Part shown: positions 1,122-10,479 of the stretch, in pieces
Position numbering within the stretch: the stretch's first letter is position 1
How the letters are laid out: each line of letters opens with the position of its first letter
Assembly (NCBI RefSeq): GCF_020010925.1
Contig: NZ_JAGJBZ010000001.1
Span: 3,082,001 to 3,146,000, forward strand
Direction: 5' to 3'
DNA length: 64,000 nucleotides
Source: Streptomyces griseiscabiei
GTDB lineage: Bacteria > Actinomycetota > Actinomycetes > Streptomycetales > Streptomycetaceae
The notes under the pieces: model-generated
Seen by the model: the letters and a program-made list of their open reading frames with translations, nothing else
Told to the model about the DNA's origin: nothing
Databases searched by the model: none
Made by a program: the position numbers and the translations under genes

Positions 1122-1206
1122 GTCCGGGTGGCGGAATGGCAGACGCGCTAGCTTGAGGTGCTAGTGCCCTTTATCGGGCGTGGGGGTTCAAGTCCCCCCT
1201 CGGACA
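1122..1206 (+). tRNA. tRNA-Leu (anticodon GAG)
   Basis: The cloverleaf can be folded by eye: acceptor stem GTCCGGG pairing with CTCGGAC (one G-U), a D arm, anticodon stem CTAGC/GCTAG with loop TTGAGGT giving anticodon GAG, a long variable arm (TGCCC...GGGCG) as in class II tRNAs, and a T arm with GTTCAAGTC. Length is 85 nt with discriminator A at 1206; CCA is not encoded. It reads CUC and CUU leucine codons. A strong hairpin follows directly. Confidence 0.95.
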
Positions 1207-1213
1207 CATAGTG

Positions 1214-1488: not shown

Positions 1489-4400
1489 ATGGCCGCCGTA
1501 TACGAGAGTCCTGACCTGACGCTGCTCGACGGGGAGCTGGCGGAGGGATCCGGGGGGTTCGGCGGGGCGGCGCGGTTCACGGCCGGTCCGGCGGCGTCCC
1601 CGCGCACGCTCGTGGATGTCTTCGAGGCGTCGGTGCGGTCGTATCCGGACGAGCCCGCGCTGGACGACGGGAAGCGGCGGCTGACCTACCGCGCGCTGGC
1701 GGTCGAGGTGGAGCAGCTGCGGCGGCGGCTGGGCGCGGCCGGGGTGGGGCTCGGGGACCGTGTCGGCGTGCGGGTGCCCTCGGGCACCAACGAGCTGTAT
1801 GTCGCCATCCTCGCGGTGCTCGCCGCCGGGGCGGCGTACGTACCGGTGGACGCCGAGGACCCCGACGAGCGGGCCGAGCTGGTGTTCGGCGAGGCCGGGG
1901 TACGGGCCGTCGTCGGGGCCGGGCACGAGCTGACCGTGCACGGCGCGTCCGACTCCCCCGCCGCACGGCCCGGGGTCGAGCACGACGCGTGGATCATCTT
2001 CACCTCCGGGTCGACGGGCAGGCCCAAGGGTGTGGCCGTCAGCCACCGCAGCGCCGCCGCGTTCGTGGACGCGGAGGCGGCGCTGTTCCTGGCCGAGGAG
2101 CCGATCGCGCCCGGGGACCGGGTGATGGCCGGTCTTTCCGTGGCCTTCGACGCGTCCTGCGAGGAGATGTGGCTGGCCTGGCGGTACGGCGCCTGTCTGG
2201 TGCCGGTGCCGCGCGCCCAGGTCAGGAGCGGCGCCGATCTGGGGCCCTGGCTGGTCGAGCAGGAGATCACCGTCGTGTCGACGGTGCCGACGCTGGCCGC
2301 GCTGTGGGAGCCCGAGACGCTCAACGACGTACGGCTGCTGATCTTCGGCGGTGAGGCGTGCCCGCCGGAGCTGGCGCAGCGGCTGGTGACGGAGGGCCGC
2401 GAGGTCTGGAACACCTACGGGCCGACCGAGGCGACCGTCGTCGCCTGTGCCTCGCTGATGTCCGGTGAGGAGCCGATCCGGATCGGGCTGCCGCTCGACG
2501 GCTGGGAGCTGGCCGTCGTCGACGAGGCCGGGGAGCCCGTGCCGATGGGCGGCAGCGGGCAGCTGGTGATCGGCGGTGTGGGGCTCGCGCGGTATCTCGA
2601 CGCCGAGAAGGACGCGGAGAAGTACGCGCCGCTGGAGTCGCTGGGCTGGGAGCGCGCCTACCGCAGTGGTGACCTGGTGAAGGCCGAGCCCGAGGGGCTG
2701 GTCTTCCTCGGGCGGGCCGACGAGCAGATCAAGCTCGGCGGGCGGCGGATCGAGCTGGGCGAGGTCGACGCCGCGCTGCAGGCGCTGCCCGGCGTCGCGG
2801 GCGCCGCGGCGGCCGTTCGGACCGCGCGGAGCGGGAACCAGCTGCTCGTCGGCTATGTGGTCACCCAGGACGGCTGGGACCAGGCGGCGGCGGTGGAGAA
2901 GCTGTGGGCGGAGCTGCCGGCCGCGCTGGTGCCGCTGCTGGCGCCGGTGGCGGAGCTGCCGACCCGGACGTCCGGGAAGGTCGACCGCGACGCGCTGCCG
3001 TGGCCGCTGGCGGAGCTGGAGACCGCGGGGCCGGCGGAGGAGCTGTACGGGACCGAGGCGTGGCTCGCCGAGCAGTGGGCCGAGGTCCTGGGGGTTCCGG
3101 TCGGCAGCGCTCAGGACGACTTCTTCGCGATCGGCGGCGGCAGCCTGGGCGCCGCCCAGCTGACGACACGGCTGCGGACGCGGTATCCGAGCGTCGCGGT
3201 GGTCGACATCTATCAGCGGCCCACGCTCAGGAAGCTGGCCCGGTATCTGGAGGCGTCCGGCGGGGAGGAAGGTCCCAGCCGGGACGTGGCACCCGTGCCC
3301 GTGCGGGCGCGGCTCGTGCAGCTGGCGCTGCTCGTCCCGCTGTTCACGCTGCTCGGGCTGCGCTGGATCGTTCCGCTGGCGGCGCTCGGGAATCTGCTGA
3401 CGCCGTACGCCTGGCTGCCGACCGCGTCCTGGTGGGCCGTGGCGGCCGGAGCGGTCCTCTTCTACACGCCGCCGGGTCGGCTGGCGATCGCGGCGGGCGG
3501 TGCGCGGCTGCTGCTGCGCGGGGTCGGGCCCGGACGGTACGCGCGCGGCGGGCGGGTGCACCTGCGGCTGTGGGCGGCGGAGCGGCTGGCCGAGTTCAGC
3601 GGGGCGACCTCGCTGACCGGGGTGTGGCTGGAACGGTACGCCCGTGCCCTGGGCGCCAAGGTCGGGGCCGAGGTCGATCTGCACGCGCTGCCGCCGGTGA
3701 CCGGGATGCTGAAGCTCGGGCGGGGCGCGGCCGTGGAGTCCGAGGTGGACCTCTCCGGGTACTGGCTGGACGGGGACCGGCTGGAGATCGGGTCCGTCAA
3801 GGTGGGCGCCGGTGCGGTGGTCGGGACGCGGAGCATGCTGCTGCCCGGGGCCCGGGTCGGCAAGCGGGCCGAGGTGGCGCCCGGCTCGGCGGTGGTCGGC
3901 CAGGTCCCCACGGGGCAGCGCTGGGCCGGGGCGCCGGCGGTGAAGCTGGGCAAGGCGAAGCGGAACTGGCCCAAGGAGCGGCCGCAGCGTGGCTTGTTCT
4001 GGCGGGTGTCGTACGGCGTGACCGGGGTCGGGCTGACCGCGCTGCCGGTGCTCGCCGGGGCCGCCGCGCTGGCCGTGCTGAGTCTGTTCGTGGACCCGGA
4101 CGCCGGGCTCGCCGTGGCGATGCGGGGGGCGGCGCTCGGGCTGGTGCCGGCCACGCTGGCGTTCGGGGCGGCGTACGCGCTGCTGCTGCTCGTCGCCGTA
4201 CGGCTGCTGAGCCTCGGGCTGCGGGAGGGTACGCACGCGACGCACAGCCGGGTCGGCTGGCAGGCGTGGACGGTCACACAGCTGATGGACCGGTCGCGGC
4301 AGACGCTGTTCCCGCTGTACGCGGGGCTGGTCACACCGGTGTGGCTGCGGCTGCTCGGGATGCGGATCGGAAAGGGCGCCGAAGTGTCGACCGTCCTTGC

Positions 4401-5364
4401 GCTGCCGAGTCTGACGACGGTCGGCGACGGGGCGTTCCTCGCGGACGACACTCTGACGGCGCCGTACGAGCTGGGTGGTGGCTGGCTGCGGATCGGGCGG
4501 GCGGAGATCGGGCGGCGGGCGTTCCTCGGGAACTCCGGGATGACCGCGCCGGGCCGTTCGGTGCCGGACGGCGGTCTGGTGGGTGTGCTGTCGGCGACGC
4601 CCAAGAAGGCCAAGAAGGGCAGCTCGTATCTGGGGCTGCCGCCGGTGCGGCTGCCCCGGTCGGTGGCGGACGGCGACCAGAGCCTGACGTACGAGCCGCC
4701 GGCGCGGCTGCTGTGGGCGCGGGCGCTGGTGGAGCTGTGCCGGATCGTGCCGGTGTTCTGCTCGGCAGGTCTCGCGCTGCTGACGGTGGCGGCGCTGAGC
4801 GCGCTGGACGGCTGGGCGTGGCCGCTGGGCGGGGTCGTGCTGCTCGGGGTGGGTGCGCTGGCCTGTGGGGTGTCCGTCGCCGCGAAGTGGCTGCTCGTGG
4901 GGCGGCACCGGACGGGTGAGCATCCGCTGTGGAGCGGTTTCGTGTGGCGCAACGAGCTGGCGGACACCTTCGTGGAGGTGCTGGCCGTGCCGTGGCTGGC
5001 CGGGTCGGTCCCGGGGACGCCGGTGCTGAACGTGTGGCTGCGCGGGCTGGGGGCGCGGATCGGCAGGGGGGTGTGGATCGAGAGTTATTGGCTACCCGAG
5101 ACCGACCTGGTCACGCTCGGGGACGGGGCCACGGTGAACCGGGGATGCGTCTTGCAGACCCACCTCTTCCACGACCGGATCTTGCGGACGGATACTGTTG
5201 AACTCCGTGAGGGTGCCACCTTGGGCCCGGGCGGAATCGTCCTGCCCGGCAGCGTGGTCGGGGCCCGCACCACCCTGGGTCCGGCGTCGCTGGTCATGGC
5301 CGCGGAGTCCGTTCCCGACGACACCCGGTGGCTGGGCAACCCGATCGAGGCATGGCGCCGCTGA
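1489..5364 (+). CDS. pls: Pls/PosA-type membrane nonribosomal peptide synthetase, predicted poly-lysine synthetase
   Basis: 1291-residue single-module synthetase with the architecture of epsilon-poly-L-lysine synthetase. The adenylation domain (about 40-510) has FTSGSTGRPKG near 168, FDASCEEMW near 218, NTYGPTEAT near 307, YRSGDL near 391 and RTSGKVDR near 493. A carrier domain follows with GGGSLG, phosphopantetheine site Ser552. Then come six membrane helices in three pairs (about 608-665, 845-905, 1085-1140) alternating with three soluble domains rich in hexapeptide-type repeats (for example LGDGATVNRG). By eye alignment with GrsA the ten pocket residues read D-A-E-S-I-G-T-V-V-K, close to the lysine code of bacitracin synthetase. 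No thioesterase or classical condensation domain is present, as in Pls. The ATG at 1489 has GAGAGGCGAGG upstream; an open frame continues upstream to 1264 but lacks family similarity. The product is expected to be a polymer joined by isopeptide bonds at the membrane (inference). Aminopeptidase gene follows. Confidence 0.85.
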   Translation: MAAVYESPDLTLLDGELAEGSGGFGGAARFTAGPAASPRTLVDVFEASVRSYPDEPALDDGKRRLTYRALAVEVEQLRRRLGAAGVGLGDRVGVRVPSGTNELYVAILAVLAAGAAYVPVDAEDPDERAELVFGEAGVRAVVGAGHELTVHGASDSPAARPGVEHDAWIIFTSGSTGRPKGVAVSHRSAAAFVDAEAALFLAEEPIAPGDRVMAGLSVAFDASCEEMWLAWRYGACLVPVPRAQVRSGADLGPWLVEQEITVVSTVPTLAALWEPETLNDVRLLIFGGEACPPELAQRLVTEGREVWNTYGPTEATVVACASLMSGEEPIRIGLPLDGWELAVVDEAGEPVPMGGSGQLVIGGVGLARYLDAEKDAEKYAPLESLGWERAYRSGDLVKAEPEGLVFLGRADEQIKLGGRRIELGEVDAALQALPGVAGAAAAVRTARSGNQLLVGYVVTQDGWDQAAAVEKLWAELPAALVPLLAPVAELPTRTSGKVDRDALPWPLAELETAGPAEELYGTEAWLAEQWAEVLGVPVGSAQDDFFAIGGGSLGAAQLTTRLRTRYPSVAVVDIYQRPTLRKLARYLEASGGEEGPSRDVAPVPVRARLVQLALLVPLFTLLGLRWIVPLAALGNLLTPYAWLPTASWWAVAAGAVLFYTPPGRLAIAAGGARLLLRGVGPGRYARGGRVHLRLWAAERLAEFSGATSLTGVWLERYARALGAKVGAEVDLHALPPVTGMLKLGRGAAVESEVDLSGYWLDGDRLEIGSVKVGAGAVVGTRSMLLPGARVGKRAEVAPGSAVVGQVPTGQRWAGAPAVKLGKAKRNWPKERPQRGLFWRVSYGVTGVGLTALPVLAGAAALAVLSLFVDPDAGLAVAMRGAALGLVPATLAFGAAYALLLLVAVRLLSLGLREGTHATHSRVGWQAWTVTQLMDRSRQTLFPLYAGLVTPVWLRLLGMRIGKGAEVSTVLALPSLTTVGDGAFLADDTLTAPYELGGGWLRIGRAEIGRRAFLGNSGMTAPGRSVPDGGLVGVLSATPKKAKKGSSYLGLPPVRLPRSVADGDQSLTYEPPARLLWARALVELCRIVPVFCSAGLALLTVAALSALDGWAWPLGGVVLLGVGALACGVSVAAKWLLVGRHRTGEHPLWSGFVWRNELADTFVEVLAVPWLAGSVPGTPVLNVWLRGLGARIGRGVWIESYWLPETDLVTLGDGATVNRGCVLQTHLFHDRILRTDTVELREGATLGPGGIVLPGSVVGARTTLGPASLVMAAESVPDDTRWLGNPIEAWRR

Positions 5365-5441
5365 ACGCGGCTCGTGCGGCGTCCGGGGAGCCGGGGGACG
5401 ATGGACGGCGTACGAGAGCGGAGCGGGGAGAGCAAGCGGCA

Positions 5442-6824
5442 GTGGCGGTTCAGCAGTCAGTGGGTCCGGACCCGTACTTCCCGGCGAACGGCGATTCCCG
5501 TTACCGGGTGCATCGGTACGAGCTGGCTGTGGACTACCGGCCGGGGCCCAACCGGCTGGCGGGCACCGCGCGGCTCAACGCCATAGCGGGCCGGGTCGCG
5601 CTCGCCGAGTTCCAGCTGAACCTCGCCGACTTCAAGATCGGCCGGGTGCGGGTGGACGGGCGGGCGCCCCACTACACGCACCGGGGCGGCAGGCTGCGGA
5701 TCCGGCCCGCGAAGCCGATCCGGCCGGGCGCGGCGTTCACGGTCGAGGTCCAGTGGTCGGGCAATCCCAAGCCGGTGAACAGCCCCTGGGGCGGCCTCGG
5801 TTGGGAGGAGCTGACCGACGGGGCGCTGGTGGCGAGCCAGCCGGTGGGGGCGCCGTCCTGGTATCCGTGCAACGACCGGCCCGCCGACAAGGCCTCGTAC
5901 CAGATCTCGGTCACGACGCCGTCGGCGTACCAGGTGGTGGCGGGCGGGCGGCTGCTCACCCGTACGGCGAAGGCGTCCACGACGACCTGGGTGTACGAGC
6001 AGTCGGCGCCGACGTCGAGCTATCTGGTCGGGCTGTCGATCGGCAAGTACCAGACGGTGCTGCTGGGCGATCCGCGGCCCGGCGGCATACCGCAGCACGG
6101 GCACATCCCGGCGCATCTGCTCACCGAGTTCTCCCGGGACTTCGCGCGGCAGCCCGCGATGATGGAGCTGTTCGAGGAGCTCTTCGGGCCGTACCCGTTC
6201 GGGGAGTACGCGGTGGTGGTGACCGAGGAGGAGCTCGATGTCCCCGTCGAGGCACAGGGGTTGTCGCTGTTCGGCGCCAACCATGTGGACGGGGCGCGGG
6301 GTTCGGAGCGGCTGGTGGCGCACGAGCTGGCGCACCAGTGGTTCGGGAACAGCGTGTCCATCGCGGACTGGCGGCACATCTGGCTGAACGAGGGGTTCGC
6401 CAAGTACGCGGAGTGGCTGTGGTCGGAGCGGTCCGGAGGGCGCACGGCGCATCAACTGGCCGCCGCCGCGCACCGGAAGCTCGCCGCGCTCCCCCAGGAT
6501 CTGCGGCTGGCCGACCCGGGCCGCAAGCTGATGTTCGACGACCGGCTCTACGAGCGCGGGGGGTTGACCGTGCACGCGGTGCGCTGCGCGCTCGGTGACG
6601 ACGCGTTCTTCCGGATGCTGCGCGGCTGGGCGACCGTCCATCGCGGGGGCGCGGTGACGACGCCCGGCTTCACCGCGCACGCGGGGCGCTACGCGGAAGA
6701 GCCGCTGGACGACCTGTTCCGGGCCTGGCTGCGGGAGCCCGCGCTGCCGCCGCTGCCCGTGCCGAAGGGGCCCGCGCTCCCGGCGCGCCCGACGTATCCG
6801 CCGACGAACGCGGGCTCGCCGTAG
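5442..6824 (+). CDS. M1 family zinc aminopeptidase, possible poly-lysine degrading enzyme
   Basis: 460-residue M1 metallopeptidase. It contains HELAHQ at 294-299 and WLNEGFAKY with Glu317, giving the HEXXH-x18-E zinc site. The beta-sandwich N domain (PYFPANGDSRYRVHRYEL) precedes it; it is shorter than PepN because it lacks the large C-terminal helical domain, as in the compact actinobacterial M1 subgroup. No signal peptide is evident. The GTG at 5442 with GGGGAG 11 bases upstream fits the family N-terminus; an in-frame ATG at 5352 would overlap the pls stop codon and allow coupled translation. Metal aminopeptidases that degrade epsilon-poly-lysine are known from producers, so a role in trimming or self-protection is a reasonable inference from position, not shown by sequence. 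Confidence 0.85.
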   Translation: MAVQQSVGPDPYFPANGDSRYRVHRYELAVDYRPGPNRLAGTARLNAIAGRVALAEFQLNLADFKIGRVRVDGRAPHYTHRGGRLRIRPAKPIRPGAAFTVEVQWSGNPKPVNSPWGGLGWEELTDGALVASQPVGAPSWYPCNDRPADKASYQISVTTPSAYQVVAGGRLLTRTAKASTTTWVYEQSAPTSSYLVGLSIGKYQTVLLGDPRPGGIPQHGHIPAHLLTEFSRDFARQPAMMELFEELFGPYPFGEYAVVVTEEELDVPVEAQGLSLFGANHVDGARGSERLVAHELAHQWFGNSVSIADWRHIWLNEGFAKYAEWLWSERSGGRTAHQLAAAAHRKLAALPQDLRLADPGRKLMFDDRLYERGGLTVHAVRCALGDDAFFRMLRGWATVHRGGAVTTPGFTAHAGRYAEEPLDDLFRAWLREPALPPLPVPKGPALPARPTYPPTNAGSP

Positions 6825-7624: not shown

Positions 7625-7654
7625 GCCCGGCCGAGGGTCAGCCGGCGGCCGGGC
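7625..7654. terminator. Hairpin between convergent genes
   Basis: GCCCGGCCG (7625-7633) and CGGCCGGGC (7646-7654) form a 9-bp stem with a 12-base loop between the broken gene and the end of the convergent GntR gene, whose last codons it overlaps. It could stop transcription from both sides. Confidence 0.4.
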
Positions 7655-8363
7655 TCTGGCCGTTGGGCGCCAGGATGTCCAGTTCCTGGAGGGCGCCCGC
7701 GGTGATCTCGCGGGTGAGTTCCTCGGCGCGGGGGGCGTCGTGTGCGCGGATGGCCTCGGCGACCTGGACGTGGAGGGTGACGGCGGCGGGGTCGGGGTCG
7801 TCGAACATGACGGCGTGGTGGGTGCGGCCGGCGAGGACCTCCTCGACGACGTCGCCGAGGCGGGCGAACATCTCGTTGCCGGAGGCGTCGAGGATCAGCC
7901 GGTGGAAGGCGACGTCGTGGTGGAGGTAGCCCTCCAGCTTGTGGCCGCGTGAGTGGGCGACCATGCCGAGGGCGCACTCGGTGATCGCGGCGCACTGCTC
8001 GGCCGTGGCGTGGTGTGCGGCGAGACCCGCGGCGATCGGTTCGACGGCGCCCCGGAGCACGGTCAGCGAGCGCAGTTGCCGGGGGCGGTCCGTACCGGCC
8101 AGGCGCCAGCGGATGACCTGGGGGTCGTAGACGTTCCACTCGGCGGACGGGCGGACGATGACGCCGACCCGGCGGCGGGACTCGACGAGGTGCATGGACT
8201 CCAGGACGCGGACCGCCTCGCGCATCACCGAGCGGGAGACCTCGAAGGTCTGGGCGAGTTCGTCCGTGCGCAGCACGCTGGCGGGCGGGTACTCGCCCGC
8301 CGTGATCGCCGGTCCGAGGGTGTCGAGTACTCGGCCGTGCAGCCCCCGGCCCGGTGTGGTCAT
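7638..8363 (-). CDS. gntR: FadR-type GntR repressor of the gluconate genes
   Basis: 241-residue GntR-family regulator. The winged helix occupies about 5-75 (DELAQTFEVSRSVMREAVRVLES recognition region) and the all-helical FCD ligand domain about 95-230, with the metal-site histidines visible in HHDVAFHRLI and HVQVAEAI. It is divergent from gluconokinase and gluconate permease genes, the arrangement known for the gluconate repressor of actinobacteria, where gluconate or its phosphate releases DNA. The start is an ATG with GGAGAAGGG-type sequence nearby. Regulation of the neighbours is inferred from position. Confidence 0.85.
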   Translation of the reverse strand: MTTPGRGLHGRVLDTLGPAITAGEYPPASVLRTDELAQTFEVSRSVMREAVRVLESMHLVESRRRVGVIVRPSAEWNVYDPQVIRWRLAGTDRPRQLRSLTVLRGAVEPIAAGLAAHHATAEQCAAITECALGMVAHSRGHKLEGYLHHDVAFHRLILDASGNEMFARLGDVVEEVLAGRTHHAVMFDDPDPAAVTLHVQVAEAIRAHDAPRAEELTREITAGALQELDILAPNGQSPAAG

Positions 8364-8428
8364 GGGGAGAAGGGTACGAGGAACGGAGAGTGAAGAAAAA
8401 GTCAGACTTATTTGTGTCCGGGGCTTGA

Positions 8429-8444
8429 ATTAGTCGTACCTAAT
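8429..8444. promoter_or_regulatory. Probable GntR operator in the gluconate divergent promoter
   Basis: ATTAG-N6-CTAAT is a perfect inverted repeat centred between the repressor start (8363) and the kinase start (8507), and it encloses GT-N3-AC, the core of FadR-type GntR operators. The surrounding 60 bases are unusually AT-rich for this genome, as expected for a promoter region. Confidence 0.55.
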
Positions 8445-8506
8445 GGGTTTCAGTGTCGTCGGCGTCGGGTGACGTCCCCGTTGTCGACGAACACTGCGAG
8501 GTAGTG

Positions 8507-9025
8507 ATGCGTACCCCTCAGGTCGTCGTGGTCATGGGCGTGGCAGGGACCGGCAAGACCACGATCGGCCCCCTGCTCGCTGCCCGGCTCGGCGTTCCGT
8601 ACGCCGAGGGCGACGACTTCCACCCCGAGGCCAACATCGCCAAGATGTCGGCCGGAACACCGCTGGACGACGCGGACCGGGGGCCGTGGCTGGACGCCAT
8701 CGGGGCCTGGGCGCACGGCCGGGACGGACTCGGCGGGGTGGTCAGCTGTTCCGCGCTGAAGCGCGCCTACCGGGACCGGCTGCGGGCCGCCGCGCCCGGG
8801 GTCGTCTTCGTGCACCTCGCCGGGGACCGCGCGCTCATCGAGGACCGGATGTCGCACCGGCAGGGCCACTTCATGCCCACCGCGCTGCTCGACTCCCAGT
8901 TCGCCACGCTGCAGCCGCTCCGGGCGGACGAGGCGGGCGTGACGGTCGGTGTGGCGGGCACGCCCGAGGAGATCGCCGAGCGGGCGGTCGCCGCGCTGCG
9001 GGAGTTCGATCCGGCCGCCTCGTAA
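8507..9025 (+). CDS. gntK: Gluconokinase
   Basis: 172-residue carbohydrate kinase that phosphorylates D-gluconate to 6-phosphogluconate with ATP, feeding the pentose phosphate pathway. The P-loop GVAGTGKTT is near residue 10, followed by the family blocks EGDDFHPEANIAKMSAGTPL, DADRGPWLDAI, SCSALKRAYRDRLR and HRQGHFMPTALLDSQF, all typical of GntK/IdnK. The ATG at 8507 has GCGAGG five bases upstream; an in-frame upstream ATG at 8453 lies across the operator region and is unlikely. It is cotranscribed with the permease 56 bases downstream. Confidence 0.93.
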   Translation: MRTPQVVVVMGVAGTGKTTIGPLLAARLGVPYAEGDDFHPEANIAKMSAGTPLDDADRGPWLDAIGAWAHGRDGLGGVVSCSALKRAYRDRLRAAAPGVVFVHLAGDRALIEDRMSHRQGHFMPTALLDSQFATLQPLRADEAGVTVGVAGTPEEIAERAVAALREFDPAAS

Positions 9026-9081
9026 CTCCCTGTCCCACCCTCTCCCCCTCCCTCCCCTTCTCCCCCACTCAAGGATTCACC

Positions 9082-10479
9082 GTGACCAGACTCAACGTCG
9101 AGCTGCTGGCAGCGGACCCCGTCGAGCCGATCACCTCGGCCGGGCACGCGCAGCTGGGCATCGCCGTACTGGCGGGCATCGCCGTGATCGTCGTGCTCAT
9201 CACCAGGTTCAAGGTGCACGCCTTCCTGGCGCTGACCATCGGCTCGCTCGCGCTGGGCGCGTTCGCCGGGGCGCCGCTGGACAAGGCGATCGCCAGCTTC
9301 ACCACCGGGCTCGGGACGACCGTGGCCGGGGTGGGCGTCCTCATCGCGCTGGGTGCGATCCTCGGCAAGCTGCTGGCGGACTCCGGGGGCGCCGACGAGA
9401 TCGTCGACACGATCCTCGCGAAGGCCGGCGGGCGGGCGATGCCCTGGGCGATGGTGCTGATCGCCTCCGTGATCGGGCTGCCGCTGTTCTTCGAGGTCGG
9501 GATCGTGCTGCTGATCCCGGTCGTGCTGATGGTCGCCAAGCGCGGCAACTACTCGCTGATGCGTATCGGCATCCCGGCCCTCGCCGGTCTGTCCGTGATG
9601 CACGGGCTGATCCCGCCGCACCCCGGCCCGCTGGTCGCGATCGACGCCGTGGGGGCCAACCTGGGGGTCACGCTGGCGCTTGGCCTGGTCGTGGCGATAC
9701 CGACCGTGATCATCGCCGGGCCGCTGTTCTCGAAGTACGCGGCCCGCTGGGTGGACGTGCCGGTGCCCGAGCGGATGATTCCCCCGCGCGCCTCGGAGGA
9801 GCTGGAGAAGCGGCCCGGGTTCGGCGCGACCCTCGCGACCGTGCTGCTGCCGGTGGTGCTGATGCTGGCCAAGGCGCTGGTGGACATCGTCGTCGACGAT
9901 CCCGAGAACATGGTGCAGCGGGTCTTCGACGTGGCCGGCTCACCGCTGATCGCGCTGCTCGCGGCGGTGATCGTGGGCATGTTCACGCTCGGGCGGGCGG
10001 CCGGGTTCACCAAGGAGCGGCTGGGGTCGACCGTCGAGAAGTCCCTCGCGCCGATCGCGGGCATCCTGCTGATCGTCGGCGCGGGCGGCGGCTTCAAGCA
10101 GACGCTGATCGACTCCGGGGTCGGGCGGATGATCCTGGAGATCTCCGAGGACTGGTCCATCCCCGCGCTCGTCCTGGCCTGGCTGATCGCGGTCGCCATC
10201 CGGCTGGCGACGGGGTCGGCGACCGTCGCGACGATCTCGGCGGCCGGCCTGGTGGCCCCGCTCGCCGCGGACATGTCGACGACCCACACGGCCCTTCTCG
10301 TCCTCGCCATCGGCGCCGGCTCGCTCTTCTTCAGCCATGTCAACGACGCCGGGTTCTGGATGGTGAAGGAGTACTTCGGGATGACCGTCGGCCAGACCAT
10401 CAAGACCTGGTCGGTGATGGAGACGATCATCTCGGTGGTGGCGGGGGCGATCGTGCTGCTGCTGTCGCTGATCATCTAG
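9082..10479 (+). CDS. gntP: GntP family gluconate:H+ symporter
   Basis: 465-residue integral membrane permease with about 12-14 hydrophobic segments. Family signatures include GIGALLGKLL-like ALGAILGKLLADSGGA, IGLPLFFEVG, HGLIPPHPGPL and SATVATISAAGLVAPL, all characteristic of GntP gluconate transporters. It imports gluconate for the adjacent kinase. Start GTG at 9082 follows AAGG with suitable spacing. The gene ends before a bidirectional hairpin that separates it from the convergent cytochrome b gene. Confidence 0.92.
   Translation: MTRLNVELLAADPVEPITSAGHAQLGIAVLAGIAVIVVLITRFKVHAFLALTIGSLALGAFAGAPLDKAIASFTTGLGTTVAGVGVLIALGAILGKLLADSGGADEIVDTILAKAGGRAMPWAMVLIASVIGLPLFFEVGIVLLIPVVLMVAKRGNYSLMRIGIPALAGLSVMHGLIPPHPGPLVAIDAVGANLGVTLALGLVVAIPTVIIAGPLFSKYAARWVDVPVPERMIPPRASEELEKRPGFGATLATVLLPVVLMLAKALVDIVVDDPENMVQRVFDVAGSPLIALLAAVIVGMFTLGRAAGFTKERLGSTVEKSLAPIAGILLIVGAGGGFKQTLIDSGVGRMILEISEDWSIPALVLAWLIAVAIRLATGSATVATISAAGLVAPLAADMSTTHTALLVLAIGAGSLFFSHVNDAGFWMVKEYFGMTVGQTIKTWSVMETIISVVAGAIVLLLSLII

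Follow-up and report, generated by a model that had tools for sequence, protein, structure and literature searches.

We analysed a stretch of 64,000 nucleotides from Streptomyces griseiscabiei (contig NZ_JAGJBZ010000001.1, positions 3,082,001 to 3,146,000 of the forward strand; hereafter the window), in which a gene for a Pls/PosA-family synthetase (pls, 1489..5364, 1291 amino acids [aa], identified by reading frame, protein matches and NCBIfam profile) is overlapped at its end by a gene for a pldII-type M1 zinc peptidase (P0002, 5352..6824, 490 aa from the ATG at 5352; Pfam, motif scan and hydropathy). Both lie on the plus strand, as do the synthetase domains and the tRNA gene placed below. 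The locus belongs to the known pls-pldII kind, a pair already described in Streptomyces albulus and Corynebacterium variabile (PMC9223678, PMC8117764). By sequence comparison the Pls loci fall into two lineages, and the peptidase of the window's lineage is predicted to be cytosolic.

The synthetase has the Pls-type plan, with adenylation (A) and carrier domains followed by a Pls/PosA membrane domain. The A domain (residues 31-508, 1579..3012, delimited by alignment with the structure 7WEW) and the peptidyl carrier protein (PCP) domain (residues 525-587, 3061..3249; Pfam, motif scan) gave Pfam matches to AMP-binding (212.9 bits) and PP-binding (48.5 bits). Their motifs are intact: SGSTGRPKG at 173, NTYGPTE at 308, YRSGDL at 391 and SGKVD at 495 in the former, and the carrier serine motif GGGS at 549 in the latter. 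The NCBIfam profile TIGR02353 (Pls/PosA family) covers the membrane polymerisation domain (residues 610-1286, 3316..5346) at 837.8 bits, against a cut-off of 423.1. Standard condensation domains of nonribosomal peptide synthetases were rejected, since no Pfam condensation match was obtained at E<=0.1. A protein search with the window Pls, which scored just the 8000 candidates with the most shared words, produced 7716 matches at E<=0.001, and the match set is therefore not due to chance; identity ranges from 86 to 95% in the best 120, and S. europaeiscabiei and S. deccanensis are among the nearest that carry a name (about 95%). An earlier note on this DNA, made from the letters alone, had proposed a complete Pls-type synthetase with a lysine-like pocket and a coupled peptidase, and the present results bear out all three points.

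Among solved structures, the closest in sequence is 7wew_A, "Epsilon-poly-L-lysine synthase" (646 bits, residues 31-508), which we take to be the S. albulus protein; the two A domains are 66% identical across 477 columns (tblastn). At what we take to be the ten GrsA specificity positions, the window Pls carries D221, A222, E225, S264, I285, G287, T309, V317, V318 and K497. The resulting code, DAESIGTVVK, is the one that the earlier note wrote, and sequence alignment places the same residue at all ten positions of 7WEW. Numbering of seven pocket residues given for PosA of Acinetobacter baumannii fits the window as well: D, A, E and S are spaced exactly alike, and I, T and the second V fall into line once a one-residue gap is allowed (PMC10522769). 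The substrate is thus probably lysine, judging from the pocket. Substrates are reported to vary across the Pls/PosA family (PMC10522769, PMC4668381), and the synthetase could instead activate another basic amino acid (ornithine, diaminobutyrate, diaminopropionate or arginine) and make a different cationic polymer. However, the pocket is identical to that of 7WEW, and the ornithine pocket is not matched: PosA, which resembles the window Pls in family and membrane domain, is described as making delta-poly-ornithine with the code DMEHNGTVSK (PMC10522769), which differs at 4 of 10 positions. The poly-diaminopropionate synthetase of S. albulus PD-1 likewise shares the A-PCP-membrane plan and the three soluble domains, but its reported substrate is diaminopropionate (PMC4668381) and its gene context is different (PMC8117764); the three non-lysine synthetases treated in PMC8117764 all have another context without a peptidase. 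A Pls relative only 34% identical to the window's (L116:6359-10309, minus strand, pocket DFECLSAVTK) also lacks an M1 match in the stretch around it. Another amino acid was therefore rejected as the substrate, and we regard this alternative as very improbable. As a separate observation, the genome with the 34% identical relative carries a lysine-type Pls too (L118) and may make a second cationic polymer.

The downstream protein matches PF01433 (88.3 bits) and has the motif HELAH-X18-E at 332. Its best start, the ATG at 5352, shares 13 bases with pls (stop at 5362-5364); an alternative start is the GTG at 5442, and the overlap holds if the ATG is used. This ATG exists because pls encodes the Ala before its C-terminal Trp by GCA. 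That codon makes up 2.3% of Ala codons in these genes, yet it is found at this site in 25 of 47 relatives (the loci with Ala-Trp there, of 55 at >=75% identity), and a further 10 have GCG, which gives GTG. Across the 80 related loci, which are the best 80 of at least 592 confirmed stretches in GTDB genomes, an in-phase start lies between 15 bases before the pls stop and its last base in 59. The case for selection of the overlap is weakened by the 12 of 47 relatives with GCC, which creates no start, by the nearest relative (L063), which has GTG at the site, and by the 21 of 80 related loci in which no start codon overlaps the pls stop; furthermore, the GCA statistic treats relatives as independent, so that its probability is too small. 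In S. albulus, pldII is likewise reported to follow pls directly, with an overlap of 4 bp (PMC4361855) as opposed to 13 in the window, and the two genes are termed translationally coupled (PMC9223678). The C. variabile operon, from another genus and likened here by description, not by sequence, also combines Pls and a peptidase, and its Pls yielded epsilon-poly-lysine (epsilon-PL) upon expression in S. coelicolor (PMC8117764).

M1 peptidases are common, with 8 matches in the S. griseiscabiei genome, and P0002 might be a housekeeping aminopeptidase that merely adjoins pls. Against this, the DAESIGTVVK pocket is accompanied by an M1 match directly downstream in 80/80 related loci, and 13 of another 14 loci of the lysine type (L117-L130) show the pairing too, the exception being an S. 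albulus-type Pls (L119) without an M1 match within its stretch, which counts against a universal pairing. P0002 is also closer to P0267, a PldII-type protein of S. noursei (45%), than are the other seven M1 enzymes of its own genome (24-38%). The constant pairing and the signs of a selected overlap led us to reject a chance neighbour, and a housekeeping role is improbable. That the pair is described in two other species and present throughout the related loci also leaves the view that the locus is unusual without support.

The earlier note had further predicted that the peptidase trims a secreted polymer, and an extracellular site is not what its N-terminus suggests. Ahead of its conserved domain, P0002 has no hydrophobic stretch in any open N-terminal reading (the highest mean over 14 residues being 0.20), and a hidden upstream start supplying an export signal was rejected on the same ground; by the same measure, three other short M1 peptidases of this genome reach 2.08-2.26. 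Read from DNA, a hydrophobic M1 N-terminus occurs in 0/80 related loci (10 with a stretch too short to score, and starts read only within the 60 bases before the pls stop), and in 0/120 among the matches listed for the window's peptidase. S. albulus-type M1 proteins, in contrast, have a twin-arginine-type start, such as MTRCSRRALIRGAALLPFAATVADG of S. noursei P0267; this protein of 467 aa equals in length the product of the S. albulus pldII frame, published as 1404 bp (PMC9223678), and we infer that it corresponds to PldII. Among 113 new matches to an S. albulus-type peptidase query, 62 have a hydrophobic start, 56 of these with a double arginine (RR); the 51 below the hydropathy threshold weaken the division; some of them are distant relatives, and P0260 (S. 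griseofuscus), at least, has a twin-arginine start. Thirteen extra loci with an M1 gene, also read from DNA and hence independently of annotated starts, gave a signal in 8 (L117, L118, L122-L127) and none in 5; all 8 loci of the S. albulus-type lineage with an M1 gene begin with a twin-arginine-type signal.

The synthetases divide in the same way. In a quick tree of 57 Pls rows (the window, 42 of the 80 related loci, the 13 extra loci and the 7WEW domain), with L116 as the outgroup, 7WEW and the 8 signal loci form one branch (support 98 in the Shimodaira-Hasegawa-like approximate likelihood-ratio test, SH-aLRT) and the window and 46 signal-less rows form the other (SH-aLRT 99). Outside the tree were the remaining 38 related loci (for size), L119 and L120 (match in pieces) and L115 (no whole Pls); the match in L120 is split in two, possibly into two reading frames. 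The window thus shares the domain plan, the pocket and the adjoining M1 gene with S. albulus Pls-PldII but sits on a separate branch, and its peptidase does not have the twin-arginine-type start typical of the S. albulus-type lineage; the predicted change of compartment appears common to the window and the rest of its lineage as sampled. Because no export signal was found, the peptidase is most likely cytosolic. Several points weigh against this assignment: the call is one of hydropathy, a protein that lacks a signal may still be located at the membrane, and the tree carries long-branch warnings for L084, L121 and the very long outgroup L116. What the missing signal makes less likely is a surface enzyme of the S. 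albulus PldII kind; the prediction that the peptidase degrades epsilon-PL is unaffected. No report of a cytosolic PldII was found among the matches listed in a literature search of open-licence PMC papers.

The same synthetase could nevertheless be served by a peptidase outside the cell, one that leaves through non-classical export or is attached to the membrane's outer face. One of the 80 related loci, with the window-type pair, is that of S. virginiae NRRL ISP-5094 (L071, 81%), presumably the same type strain as IFO12827. The latter is described as an epsilon-PL producer with high epsilon-PL-degrading activity, and the PldII activity of S. albulus is placed on the cell surface (PMC9205021). 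An outside enzyme would, however, have to be reconciled with the lack of hydrophobic N-termini across the scorable related loci, given that hydropathy does pick up signals both in the genome's three other short M1 enzymes and in every S. albulus-type locus with an M1 gene, and we consider it unlikely.

The polymerisation domain comprises membrane helices and probably three hexapeptide-type (left-handed beta-helix) domains, C1-C3, going by NCBIfam, hydropathy, model and fold search. Against the six transmembrane helices expected of a Pls, hydropathy shows five maxima >=1.6 in the C-terminal part, plus one false maximum in the soluble A domain, and the helices of the predicted model fit three pairs, the last of which is one long helix. 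The earlier note's view that hexapeptide-repeat domains take the place of condensation domains stands for C1, which matches solved hexapeptide acyltransferases in the fold search and Pfam Hexapep (36.9 bits at 770-802). For C2 and C3 it extends to a strand pattern in the model resembling that of C1, the domain which the fold search covered. Beta-helix, hexapeptide-type C1-C3 were modelled earlier for PosA, according to PMC10522769.

Within C3, a conservation count revealed the patch E1204...Q1223-T-H1225-L-F-H1228-D1229-R1230 (5098..5178), in which E1204, Q1223, H1225 and D1229 are identical in 128/128 matched stretches (window copies counted in). H1225 is the sole invariant His within the membrane domain of the 33 sequences compared, and C1 and C2 carry Tyr at the aligned position. 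Going by this pattern, C1 and C2 are probably structural rather than catalytic, and C3 is most likely the catalytic unit, with H1225 as the general base surrounded by E1204, Q1223 and D1229. H1225 is not the only candidate base, because H1228 and, outside C3, H691 and H732 are nearly as conserved (each in 31/33 sequences), which counts against so specific an assignment. Counterparts of W646 and L883, the reported chain-length residues of S. albulus Pls (PMC8506220), were sought and could not be placed; in the L118 relative, the residues so numbered are P and V.

Taken together, we consider it likely that the window encodes a lysine-type Pls with catalysis in C3 and a cytosolic, polymer-degrading M1 peptidase with a protective role. 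The A domain would adenylate L-lysine and load the carrier domain, C3 would polymerise, and the M1 peptidase of the overlapping gene would break the polymer down, acting in the cytosol on chains that were not exported or leaked back, so as to protect the producer and recycle lysine. Epsilon-PL is reported to cross mammalian cell membranes directly and to spread in the cytosol (PMC9606270), and a producer might for that reason require a peptidase inside the cell. From its M1 fold the enzyme would be expected to clip at the free amino end; S. albulus PldII, by comparison, is called endo-type (PMC8506220, PMC9223678), which speaks against such clipping, and it also has to be considered that Pls can be silent (PMC8117764). 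Chain trimming, as the earlier note envisaged it, is only partly supported by the accounts of S. albulus, where chain length is said to be set by Pls and not by peptidases (PMC8506220, citing Yamanaka 2010), though longer chains are described after repression of pldII (PMC9223678); the two sources disagree on the effect of PldII, which leaves the role of the peptidase less secure. For the broader proposal, that the two lineages differ in the side of the membrane on which the coupled peptidase works (exported through a twin-arginine-type signal in the S. albulus type, and in the window's a cytosolic safeguard that degrades unexported or re-entering polymer and recycles lysine) and that in both a single conserved C3 His forms the isopeptide bond, we put the chances at about even.

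The locus itself is ordinary. Of 199 Streptomyces genomes sampled, among them that of the window, 79 have a Pls match at E<=1e-100. A tRNA-Leu (GAG) lies just upstream of pls in the window (1122..1207, tRNA scan), and a scan of 60 of the 80 related loci placed one upstream in 26. Because of this frequency and the conserved pocket, M1 gene and tRNA context, we regard it as an established part of many Streptomyces genomes. Next to the pls-peptidase operon (window 7638-10479) lie a GntR-type regulator on the minus strand and a gluconokinase (190 aa, TIGR01313, 185.9 bits), followed by a long open frame that is gluconate permease-like by eye. Elsewhere in the genome, the three other short M1 peptidases mentioned above (L135, L136 and L138; open frames of 494-504 aa) have hydrophobic N-termini, one of them lipoprotein-like by eye, and are candidates for surface epsilon-PL-degrading activity in this S. 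griseiscabiei strain. The genome also encodes another protein of the Pls family, which lacks an adenylation domain (L115:2188-10649, minus strand; G000:C2 about 1523187-1531648), a 918-aa frame with carrier domain and TIGR02353 (786.9 bits). After it come a separate A and carrier gene (code DIWQSTADDK by alignment), a gene for a TauD-type dioxygenase, and diaminopropionate genes of the SbnB and SbnA types, which exceed their curated cut-offs; together they may form a split Pls-like machine with a diaminopropionate supply. The 918-aa protein is matched at E<=1e-60 in 32 of 101 Streptomyces genomes, with a few of the matches in longer frames.

Epsilon-polylysine is used commercially to preserve food, and it matters how its producers survive it and what sets its length. 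A pair of lineages with different predicted compartments for the peptidase makes the question of self-protection directly testable, and the C3 patch offers a target for point mutations in the polymerisation step.
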